DNA of 64,000 nt from Kofleriaceae bacterium. Its GTDB lineage: Bacteria > Myxococcota_A > Polyangia > Haliangiales > Haliangiaceae. How positions within the stretch are numbered: position 1 is the first letter of the stretch; every line of letters begins with the position of its first letter. Positions 3,054-54,717 of this stretch are shown one piece after another. The stretch lies in the NCBI GenBank assembly GCA_018057825.1, contig JAGPCY010000014.1, positions 124,001 through 188,000 on the forward strand, in the 5' to 3' direction. The position numbers were made by a program, and so were the translations under genes. The notes under the pieces were generated by a model, which saw only the letters and a program-made list of their open reading frames with translations, did not search any database and was not told where the DNA came from.

Positions 3054-3851
3054 TCAGCGGGGCGTGAACTTGCCGCGCGCCGGCAGGAGGAACTTCATGA
3101 ACGCGACCTCGGCCGCGGTCCCGCGCTTGGTGTAGGTGCGATCGTCGACCACGAACCAGGTGCGCTGGTCGTCGGTGATGTCGGCGGCGGTGGCGGCCAG
3201 CGCGATCGGCGTCGGGTCGACCTCGGCGGTGGCCGCGGCCTCGGCCAAGAGCTCGCCCAGGCGCGCCAGCTTGGCGTCGATCGTGACCGGGGCGAACTGC
3301 GGGCCGACCTTGGCGGTCAGGTCGACCGCCGGCGAGCCGCCGTAGACGTGATTGGGCTCCAGGTCGCGGGTGATCACGCTGCCGACCATGGCCATCGCGC
3401 GATCGCCGGCGGTGATCGGCGACACGATGCAGTGCCCGACGAACCACACGTCCTTGCCGATCGTGAGCGGGCGCTCGCCGAGGAACCGACAGCCCTCGAG
3501 CGTGTCGCCGTACTTGATGTGGCTCCAGAGCTGGGAGTGCGCGCCGATGCCGCAGTTGTCGCCGATGGTGAGCCCGCCGGTGCTGTCGAGGAGCGTGTAC
3601 TGCCCGACCCAGGCGTTGTGGCCGAGGTGGCATGGCCGCGCGCCGTGGACGTTGCCGTGGTGATGGATCTTGCCGTAGTCGCCCATCGCGAAGTCGTCGC
3701 AGCGGAGTTGCACGCTCTCGCCGACGTAGCAGTGATCGCCGAGCACGATCCGACGGGCCCGGCCCCCGGTCGGGCCACACAGGACCGCGGTCGGGTGGAT
3801 GACGGTGCCGGTGCCGATCACGACCTCGTCGGCGTCGATGCGGGCGCGCAT
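3054..3851 (-). CDS. Left-handed beta-helix (hexapeptide repeat) acyltransferase-like protein
   Basis: 265-aa protein. The first ~190 residues are a run of hexapeptide-like turns ([IV]GxxxxV: VVIGTGTVIHPTAV, VYGGSPA) as in acetyl/acyltransferases that form trimeric left-handed beta-helices. The ending ITRDLEPNHVYGGSPA is typical of the last coil before the C-terminal extension. The remaining ~80 residues are helical with no recognised domain. It lies 52 bases downstream of the radical SAM gene on the same strand and could be the last gene of the peptide operon. It could act on a sugar, amino acid or the peptide product; substrate unknown. Confidence 0.75.
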   Translation of the reverse strand: MRARIDADEVVIGTGTVIHPTAVLCGPTGGRARRIVLGDHCYVGESVQLRCDDFAMGDYGKIHHHGNVHGARPCHLGHNAWVGQYTLLDSTGGLTIGDNCGIGAHSQLWSHIKYGDTLEGCRFLGERPLTIGKDVWFVGHCIVSPITAGDRAMAMVGSVITRDLEPNHVYGGSPAVDLTAKVGPQFAPVTIDAKLARLGELLAEAAATAEVDPTPIALAATAADITDDQRTWFVVDDRTYTKRGTAAEVAFMKFLLPARGKFTPR

Positions 3852-3903: not shown

Positions 3904-5355
3904 TCACTCGCCCGCGACCGGCAGGGCGCGGACCACGCCGCGGGTCAGGCGATCGGTCAGGACCGCGCGCTCACCGTCGACGCGGCGGGCCTCGTGGTCG
4001 CGGCCGCGGCGGCGCAGCTCGGCCGCGATCGCGCCCAGGGCGGCGCTGGTGTCGGCCATGGCCGCGCGGTCGGTGAGGATGCTGGCGCGGTTGCGATCGC
4101 CGACCGGCAACATGAAGCGGACCGCGGCGCCGTCGGCCAGGGCCAGGGCCGTGAACGCCTCGAGCTCGTGGCGGTTGGCGCGCAGGATCACGAAGCTGTA
4201 GGTGATCGCGGCGGGGTCGCCGCGCTCGGCGCGTCGGGCCCACAGCGCGTCGAGGTGACCGCGGATCCGCGCCCACGGCAGGCCGCGATTGACCGCGGCG
4301 TAGGTCGCGGCGGTGGCGGCGTTCAGGCTGATCGTGACGTGGGCGAAGGCGACGTCGCGGTAGCGGTCGAGCGCGTCGGGCGTCAGGTACGAGCCGTTGG
4401 TGGTGAGCGCGACCTCGAGCTGCGGGTGTGCGCGCCACACCGGCCCGGCCAGGAACTCGCGGAACACCGGCGACGCCAGCGGCTCGCCGCCCAGGACCTC
4501 GAGGCGTCCCAGGCCTGGCCACAGCGGCGCCAACGCCTGATAGAACGCCGGCGGCAGCTCGTCGGTCAGCGAGCCCTCGGCGCCGTGGCTGCACATCAGG
4601 CAGTCGTAGTTGCAGTAGCTGGTGGCCGGCACCACGAGCTCGAGCGGGGTCGAGGTCGGCTGCTCGTCGCCGGCGAGGATCGCTCGGACCGCGGCCACCT
4701 GGTTGGCGCGGAACGCCGCGGGCCCGCCGCGCAGGATCAACGCGCGCAGGTCGTCGGAGCGGCCGAGCCAGCGCGGGCAGCTCGGGCGGCAGGTGCTCGG
4801 CGTCGGCGTGGTGAGCGCGCGGCGAAACCCGCGCAGGGCCGGCGAGGCCCACAGCGCGAGGGGCGGACCGTGGCCGAGGGCGGGCGCGGTCTGGAAGTCG
4901 GCGCAGCACGGGCCGTAGCGATCGCGGAAGCCGTACTCGAGGCGGGTCCACGGTGCCACGCAGCGCGGCGCGGTCAGGCGCTCGGCTGGCAGCAGGTCGG
5001 CGAGGGCCACCGCCGCGCGCGGATCGTCACCCAGGGCGTCGACGACCTCGGTCCAGTCGGGGGCAGCGGTCACCGCCGGCCAGTGCGGCGCCAGGGCGGC
5101 GGCCAGCGCGTGGCCGATCGGCGCCACGGTCGCGAACGGCTGCGCGGTGCGGCGATAGCTGAGCGCGGGCAACCCCGGGAACGGTCCGGGCTGCAGCGCG
5201 GTCGCGGCGAGCGAGAACGCGAGGACCGCGCCGTCGACGGCGACCTCGACGAGCAACCCGTCGCCGCCGCGGATCAAGGCCGCGATGCGACCGGCGCCGA
5301 GGGACTGGCCGACCGCGAGGGGGCCGAGCTGCTTGACGTGGATCGTCCTCGCCAT
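3904..5355 (-). CDS. Radical SAM protein with N-terminal SPASM/twitch-like Cys region, next to GG-leader peptides
   Basis: 483 aa. The radical SAM core begins at about residue 235. C248-xxx-C252-xx-C255 (YCNYDCLMC) binds the 4Fe-4S cluster, and LGGEPL gives the GGE SAM-binding motif. Before it, residues ~130-195 hold C132, C150, C151, C189 and C193 in a SPASM-like context (CCADF..., W.SPALRGFRRAL...CRPSC), so an auxiliary cluster domain appears to precede the core instead of following it. The first ~120 residues have no recognised domain. The gene is 46 bases downstream of peptide gene B on the same strand. By analogy with rSAM/SPASM RiPP maturases it would modify the peptides, but this is inference; no RRE domain was recognised. 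Confidence 0.82.
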   Translation of the reverse strand: MARTIHVKQLGPLAVGQSLGAGRIAALIRGGDGLLVEVAVDGAVLAFSLAATALQPGPFPGLPALSYRRTAQPFATVAPIGHALAAALAPHWPAVTAAPDWTEVVDALGDDPRAAVALADLLPAERLTAPRCVAPWTRLEYGFRDRYGPCCADFQTAPALGHGPPLALWASPALRGFRRALTTPTPSTCRPSCPRWLGRSDDLRALILRGGPAAFRANQVAAVRAILAGDEQPTSTPLELVVPATSYCNYDCLMCSHGAEGSLTDELPPAFYQALAPLWPGLGRLEVLGGEPLASPVFREFLAGPVWRAHPQLEVALTTNGSYLTPDALDRYRDVAFAHVTISLNAATAATYAAVNRGLPWARIRGHLDALWARRAERGDPAAITYSFVILRANRHELEAFTALALADGAAVRFMLPVGDRNRASILTDRAAMADTSAALGAIAAELRRRGRDHEARRVDGERAVLTDRLTRGVVRALPVAGE

Positions 5356-5401
5356 CGGGCGCCGCGACGGGCGCGCCGAGCATAGCCGGTCGCGCCGGCG
5401 A

Positions 5402-5695
5402 TCAATCGAACTTGCTGCCGACCCAACGGCCGAGGTTCGAGCCGGCGTAGCCGCCGACCGCGCTGCCCGCGGTGGCGCCGATCGCGCCGCCGGCGAGAGA
5501 CCCGACGCCGGGGCCGGCGACCGCGGTGCCCGCCGCCGAGCCGAGGATCGCGCCGCCAGTGGCGCCGCCCCACTGGCCGACCTTGCCGCCGGCCCACTCG
5601 CCCCACTCGGCCCAGGAGGCGCCGCCGGTGACGTCGTCGAGGGCCGCGGTGTCGATCGTGACGAAGCTCGGGATGGACTTGACGTTGGTGGACAT
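5402..5695 (-). CDS. Double-glycine leader, glycine-zipper peptide B (bacteriocin/RiPP precursor-like)
   Basis: 97-aa peptide. The leader (~25 aa) ends in ALDDVTGG, a double-glycine cleavage motif as used by C39-peptidase ABC exporters. The predicted core starts ASWAEWGEWAGG, continues as a long Gly/Ala run with repeated GxxxG spacing, and ends GRWVGSKFD. It shares start, end and zipper with peptide A at 5939-6229. The start is supported by GGAG seven bases upstream of the ATG. It lies between the small membrane protein and the radical SAM gene. The core probably inserts into or spans membranes like class II bacteriocins. Modification by the neighbouring enzyme is inference. Confidence 0.85.
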   Translation of the reverse strand: MSTNVKSIPSFVTIDTAALDDVTGGASWAEWGEWAGGKVGQWGGATGGAILGSAAGTAVAGPGVGSLAGGAIGATAGSAVGGYAGSNLGRWVGSKFD

Positions 5696-5721
5696 GGGAG
5701 GGCTCCGGGGGGCTAGTGGGG

Positions 5722-5922
5722 CTAGAGGCGGTGGAGGAGGTGGAGGACGAGATGGAGGGTGACGAAGGCGGCGAAGCCGATGGCGATCGCCGGTCCGAGG
5801 GCGAGGGTCTGCGCGAGCCCGACCACCACCAGGCCAACGATGGCGGCGATGGCGGCGTCCTCGGCGCGCGACGAGCGCGCGGCGGGGATCGGGGCGCGCG
5901 GTCGTTCGGGAGACGCGGTCAT
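5722..5922 (-). CDS. Small membrane protein in the peptide locus (possible immunity protein)
   Basis: 66 aa. A ~20-residue charged N-terminus is followed by two hydrophobic segments (AAIAAIVGLVVVGLAQ and ALGPAIAIGFAAFVTLHLVL), the last ending LHLLHRL. It sits between the two GG-leader peptide genes with gaps of 16 and 26 bases, all on the minus strand. Small two-helix membrane proteins in this position are often bacteriocin immunity factors, but sequence alone does not show it. The start at 5922 has only a weak ribosome-binding site. Not recognised as a named family. Confidence 0.6.
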   Translation of the reverse strand: MTASPERPRAPIPAARSSRAEDAAIAAIVGLVVVGLAQTLALGPAIAIGFAAFVTLHLVLHLLHRL

Positions 5923-5938
5923 GGTGGGGCCGGCGCGA

Positions 5939-6229
5939 TCAATCGAACTTGCTGCCGATCCAGCTCCCGACCTGCGAGCCGACGTAGCCGCCGGCCGCGC
6001 CGCCCGCGACGCTGCCGACCGCGGTGCCGGCGGCGGTCCCAGCCGGGCCCGCGATCGCGGTGCCGGCGGCCCCGCCGAGCATGCCGCCGCCGACGCCGCC
6101 CATGAACTTGCCGAGGCCGTTGCCGGCCCAGCCGCCCCACTCGGCCCAGGAGGCGCCGCCGGTGACGTCGTCGAGGGCGTCGGGGTCGATCGTGGTGAAC
6201 TCGAGGGTGGCGGCGGCGGGGCGGGTCAT
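5939..6229 (-). CDS. Double-glycine leader, glycine-zipper peptide A (bacteriocin/RiPP precursor-like)
   Basis: 96-aa peptide and probable first gene of the locus. The leader ends ALDDVTGG. The core begins ASWAEWGGWAG and ends GSWIGSKFD, with multiple GxxxG/AxxxG steps between. The ATG at 6229 is chosen because AGGAG precedes it by six bases; the open frame upstream has no initiation signal. Peptides A and B have the same leader end, the same first seven core residues and the same last five, so they look like a duplicated pair, possibly a two-peptide system. Three GGATGTCC repeats (6261-6289) lie just upstream. Confidence 0.85.
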   Translation of the reverse strand: MTRPAAATLEFTTIDPDALDDVTGGASWAEWGGWAGNGLGKFMGGVGGGMLGGAAGTAIAGPAGTAAGTAVGSVAGGAAGGYVGSQVGSWIGSKFD

Positions 6230-54106: not shown

Positions 54107-54164
54107 CCCGCCATTGTAGGCCCAGCGCGCGGCCATTTCGATCGTCGTGTGCGCGAACCGGAAG

Positions 54165-54298
<134 letters not shown>

Positions 54299-54315
54299 TC
54301 AGGGCGCGGCCGGCG

Positions 54316-54717
54316 TCACACGCTCTTCTTGACGCCGTACATGAGGAGCGCCAGGAAGACCACGATCGGGATCAGGTACGGCACGACGAACAGCCCGCCC
54401 AGCTCGAAGTGCTTCCAGCCGATGAACATCTGACCCGAGGTCACCGCGCCGGCGATCAAGAACGCGCCGATCGCCTCGGGCCAGTCGGTCTCCATCTTGA
54501 GCCCGAGCCAGAAGATCAGCGCGCCGACCGCGAACACGATCAAGCTCAACGCCCACGACGGCAACCCGATGATCGTGCTCACCCCTTCCTTCGCCGCGGT
54601 CGGGTTCGAGTACACCAGGTTCACGATCAGCGCGCCCACGATCAAGAGGCCGAGCATGATCAGGTAGGTCCACATCCGGCCCTTGCCGGTGCCCAGGAAC
54701 TCTTTTTCGGCGGCCAT
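54316..54717 (-). CDS. Small four-helix membrane protein
   Basis: 133 aa with hydrophobic segments at ~17-37 (LIMLGLLIVGALIVNLV), ~52-70 (WALSLIVFAVGALIFWLGL), ~82-97 (AIGAFLIAGAVTSGQMFI) and ~106-126 (VVPYLIPIVVFLALLMYGV). No recognised family. ATG at 54717 is the natural start. Function unknown. Confidence 0.72.
   Translation of the reverse strand: MAAEKEFLGTGKGRMWTYLIMLGLLIVGALIVNLVYSNPTAAKEGVSTIIGLPSWALSLIVFAVGALIFWLGLKMETDWPEAIGAFLIAGAVTSGQMFIGWKHFELGGLFVVPYLIPIVVFLALLMYGVKKSV

Follow-up and report, generated by a model that had tools for sequence, protein, structure and literature searches.

Class IIb two-peptide bacteriocins of Gram-positive bacteria consist of a peptide pair carrying GxxxG motifs, together with a transmembrane (TM) immunity protein. 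In Caulobacter, the contact-dependent bacteriocin CdzC/CdzD/CdzI comprises two glycine-zipper proteins that leave the cell by type I secretion, and its immunity protein is a small TM protein (Garcia-Bayona 2017, PMC5380434). The Cdz survey discarded hits that had type I secretion genes no closer than 10 kb (PMC5380434), and because of this filter unlinked pairs such as the one reported here would have been missed. Our locus lies in a stretch of 64,000 nucleotides from a Kofleriaceae genome (the window, by which we mean the whole stretch analysed), for which an original prediction had proposed a secreted, modified peptide pair with its own immunity protein. CdzC/CdzD/CdzI is the closest known system, and the locus looks like a Cdz-like variant whose exporter is unlinked and shared.

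An ORF check of the window confirmed all ORFs on the minus strand, in the layout first proposed (peptide A, a 66-aa two-helix protein, peptide B and a radical SAM (rSAM) protein on the same strand with short gaps):

Peptide A: 5939-6229, minus strand; 96 aa, double-glycine leader and glycine-zipper core
Leader of A: 6155-6229, minus strand; 25 aa, ends ...TIDPDALDDVTGG, predicted C39 cleavage after GG
ORF66: 5722-5922, minus strand; 66 aa, small two-TM protein, candidate immunity protein
Peptide B: 5402-5695, minus strand; 97 aa, double-glycine leader and glycine-zipper core
Leader of B: 5621-5695, minus strand; 25 aa, ends ...TIDTAALDDVTGG
rSAM protein: 3904-5355, minus strand; 483 aa, N-terminal twitch-like cysteines
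Hexapeptide-repeat acyltransferase: 3054-3851, minus strand; next gene downstream of the rSAM gene

The intergenic gaps measure 16 nt (A to ORF66), 26 nt (ORF66 to B) and 46 nt (B to the rSAM gene), with 52 nt from the rSAM gene to the acyltransferase. Codon usage backs the reading frames listed for A, ORF66, B, the rSAM protein and the acyltransferase, and a sigma-70 promoter scan returned no match. The acyltransferase is missing beside the other rSAM relatives that we compared, and on this comparative evidence it is not part of the peptide module. Elsewhere in the window, a 61-aa ORF (54147-54332, plus strand) consists mostly of an ETETET repeat.

Peptides A and B are paralogues (59% identity) that share, as originally described, a double-glycine leader, a core start and a core end: the run of DDVTGG followed by ASWAEWG and the terminal GSKFD are identical in both. 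The Pfam model for ComC-type double-glycine leaders gave 24.0 bits for B, above the cut-off of 20.4, and 15.9 bits for A, below it. Their cores are hydrophobic zippers of 71-72 aa, and the GxxxG runs ascribed to them were borne out at about twice the shuffled-core count, with 16 GxxxG pairs in A (shuffle mean 7.4) and 15 in B (6.1); for neither peptide was the observed count reached in any of 5000 composition shuffles. AlphaFold2 modelled B as a leader helix plus a two-helix hairpin, a weak model (best pLDDT 78, the other four models <53), and a fold search with it found nothing significant among solved structures.

Set against the published Cdz criteria, A and B (96 and 97 aa) fall within the range of 60-151 residues, and their leaders, both ending in VTGG, have the G[G/A/S] terminus. 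One or two zipper runs, flanked and not interrupted by proline or charge, are apparent from the GxxxG excess over shuffles; the single core proline lies between the two helices in the B model and was read as a run boundary, and isolated charged residues (K, R) are seen towards the ends. The short charged or polar C-terminus is represented by GSKFD. Four of the published sequence criteria are thus found in the pair, but type I secretion genes are not located within 10 kb, the sole C39 domain being on contig C14, and for want of this linkage we do not file A/B as a Cdz member. The likeness to CdzC/D is one of layout and criteria. It includes two small zipper proteins at one locus, the leader type, the short charged C-terminus, a small TM (candidate) immunity protein and type I secretion. 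The differences are the exporter, which in the genome of A/B is unlinked and on another contig, and the position of ORF66 between the peptides, whereas the cdzCDI operon has its immunity gene after them. Even so, A/B may well work like the Cdz system.

Two other classes were compared. Class IIa microcins such as MccV (PMC10233263) resemble our locus in the double-glycine leader, the C39 exporter that works with a fusion protein and TolC, the unmodified core and the (candidate) immunity protein, but A and B are two paralogous peptides without cysteines for disulphides, their host does not belong to the Enterobacteriaceae and the exporter is encoded elsewhere. With class IIb bacteriocins the locus shares the peptide pair, its GxxxG motifs and a TM (candidate) immunity protein; judged from general knowledge of that class, it differs in its long, paralogous cores and in an exporter of the Gram-negative type with TolC.

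The original prediction had suggested looking outside the locus for a C39 exporter, and one was found: the only C39 domain of the genome belongs to an ABC transporter on G000:C14, a different contig from that of A and B, beside two membrane-fusion-like proteins and one TolC-like protein. Three leader peptides with another, non-zipper core type lie near this exporter, and the leader model ranked A and B first and these three exporter-linked peptides next. The same model detected at least 11 double-glycine leaders in the genome, attached to several core types, with the signature FxTIDxxxLDxVTGG, which offers a means of finding more such peptides. A C39 domain is present in every genome of the order that carries zipper peptides. 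Since the exporter is unlinked, we infer the export of A and B from their shared leader; both are probably exported in trans by the C14 transporter. Double-glycine peptides of other kinds were also seen: a second family (GGRRAASS...IENSIRDLGRNQ...PLLAMSMLNQP) occurs at L041:16514-17589, L082:7022-7309 and L083:6770-7156, partly near the exporter, and L084:6425-7236 holds three tandem small ORFs, two of which carry the same leader in front of a different core that has no zipper.

The ComC leader match, together with the presence of several short leader peptides elsewhere in this genome, would also fit if A and B were signalling peptides, that is, ComC-like pheromones released via the C39 exporter. 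We consider this highly improbable, given that hydrophobic zipper cores of 71-72 aa are unlike short soluble pheromones and that, in our own reading of the gene list, a receptor-like sensor gene next to A/B is absent.

Zipper homologues comprised 13 peptides at 10 loci (two contig ends of G022 being taken as one locus), with all genomes in one bacterial family; a class search of 318 genomes found none outside that family at E 1e-9. They occur in G022 (a pair and one more), G019 (a tandem pair), G026, G003, G027, G029 and G015, with one further zipper peptide in the window's own genome (contig C47). Zipper pairs therefore recur in three genomes: the window's, G022 and G019. The G022 pair keeps an ASWREWGQWAG start and GLFD/GMFD ends, in keeping with the common pattern of an ASWxEWGxWAG start and an xFD end. 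It is split between the ends of contigs C385 and C404. One contig end carries an A-like peptide and then the start of a small ORF, the other the last part of a hydrophobic small ORF and then a B-like peptide; both ends are cut inside a small ORF, and the arrangement seems to mirror A-ORF66-B. Zipper matches to phage proteins (PHROGs and two viral contigs) were judged to be low-complexity matches.

The proposal that the small protein between the peptides confers immunity gained ground from these loci, with a small hydrophobic ORF after the zipper peptides at 6 of 10 (counted by eye). It begins at or just past the stop of A, of the first G022 peptide and of the C47, G003 and G026 peptides; after the second G019 peptide it begins only further on. 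Under a strict criterion (two TM segments, 45-110 aa, within 60 nt), a two-TM ORF was found downstream of 3/12 testable zipper peptides and 2/241 other genes (Fisher p 8e-4, indicative because the test was devised after the pattern had been seen). None of eight non-zipper double-glycine peptides had a small TM ORF close by. An immunity partner is not universal, as at four zipper loci (G027, G029, G015 and G022:C350) a small TM ORF is not obvious. When the small TM ORFs were compared with each other, a single pair (G003-G019, z 6.3) showed homology, and the set could not be aligned as one family. We consider ORF66 a candidate immunity protein.

Taking these observations together, we lean slightly towards A and B being an exported glycine-zipper pair of the Cdz/class IIb-bacteriocin type. 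A and B would be ribosomally made, the one C39-peptidase ABC exporter of the genome, on the other contig, would recognise their ...LDDVTGG leaders and cleave them behind the GG, and the two-helix GxxxG hairpin cores would pair in or on the membranes of neighbouring cells and damage them. ORF66, in the inner membrane of the producer, would provide self-protection. Export, cleavage, membrane attack and immunity are what we infer for A, B and ORF66 from their sequences. If true, toxin-immunity modules scattered over a genome and served by a shared exporter would add to the variety of such weapons known so far.

It is also conceivable, but rather unlikely, that A and B are not toxins but material exported to the cell surface or matrix, such as adhesins or amyloid-like zipper aggregates, with the small TM ORFs as export or anchoring helpers. 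CdzC itself forms surface aggregates (PMC5380434), some zipper loci lack a candidate immunity gene, and the many leader peptides of the genome, with several core types, share a leader and presumably an exporter. Nonetheless, a layout of toxin and immunity genes accounts better for the pairing and for a small TM protein placed between the peptides or behind them.

With regard to the neighbouring enzyme, rSAM/SPASM enzymes, which modify RiPP cores, had been named as the known parallel. The rSAM core CxxxCxxC is intact (C248, C252 and C255), but the extra conserved cysteines (C132, C150, C151, C189 and C193) are all N-terminal to the core and twitch-like, and do not belong to a C-terminal SPASM domain. 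In these cysteines the enzyme resembles the N-terminal twitch rSAM family (N_Twi_rSAM, NF033640); it differs in scoring 49.8 bits, far under the curated cut-off of 170, which places it outside the family, and in having several relatives that are fused to, or beside, a second rSAM. The best fold matches of its model were BlsE, viperin and DesII, with the RiPP maturases SuiB and SkfB at lower rank. In our own reading of the model, a meander of strands and a helix make up the N-terminal domain, in which a clear leader-binding winged helix is not seen.

Of 379 Myxococcota genomes searched at E 1e-40, 29 encode relatives of the enzyme, and zipper peptides beside them were found in the window's genome only (leader search of 1.5-kb flanks of 30 loci and of wider loci). 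The 66%-identical enzyme of G003, from the same genus, stands alone, next to an SMP-30-like gene and a cytochrome-like gene (the names are our reading), with one non-zipper leader peptide ~4 kb away. Six further relatives adjoin other genes. Conversely, no relative of the enzyme was detected at E 0.001 in G022 (93% complete), G019 or G026 (89%). Since the G022 pair keeps the core ends without a detected relative of the enzyme, the conserved core features are independent of this enzyme. The association with the peptides turns out, across these genomes, not to be conserved, the enzyme being a neighbour in this one genome only, and the peptides most likely do not require it. Absence of co-occurrence in relatives, which the original prediction had named as counting against it, thus applies to the enzyme and not to the peptides: the evidence supports a secreted pair accompanied by an immunity protein, but not the enzyme as part of the system or modification by it.

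Modification of the A/B cores by this enzyme, for example at the conserved WxxW start, would require a recent, strain-specific recruitment yielding a modified two-peptide product. The same-strand position 46 nt after B, the intact rSAM core and the SuiB and SkfB matches speak for it. We nevertheless hold it to be improbable, given that the other relatives of the enzyme examined lack adjacent zipper peptides, that the sole leader peptide near one (in G003) is distant and of non-zipper type, that the G003 enzyme stands alone, that the G022 peptides keep ASWREWGQWAG and the xFD ends in a genome where no relative of the enzyme was detected, that the top-ranked folds are not peptide maturases, and that a clear leader-binding domain is lacking. 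The A/B cores also have no cysteines, and hence no sactionine bond can form. Conserved co-occurrence of enzyme and precursor, by which rSAM-modified RiPPs are recognised, was not found, and our literature search returned no paper combining glycine zipper, radical SAM and leader peptide. Very unlikely, too, is a combined scheme in which at least 11 double-glycine peptides of several core types, scattered over this genome as an arsenal and including two-peptide zipper toxins that have immunity genes of their own, all depend on one C39 exporter, and the rSAM protein was recruited in this strain to modify the zipper pair. Another rSAM protein may act in trans on the zipper peptides.

Among the relatives of the enzyme, two (L037 and L038) are fused to a second rSAM domain (CNQDCPFC), and at L034 and L035 the second rSAM is a separate gene nearby. 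A search of the window's genome for such a partner gave generic rSAM matches only, many of them in one array. About a dozen rSAM-type (CxxxCxxC) genes, including a 1539-aa ORF, are arrayed over ~38 kb at G000:C72:13000-52000 (L159, L160).
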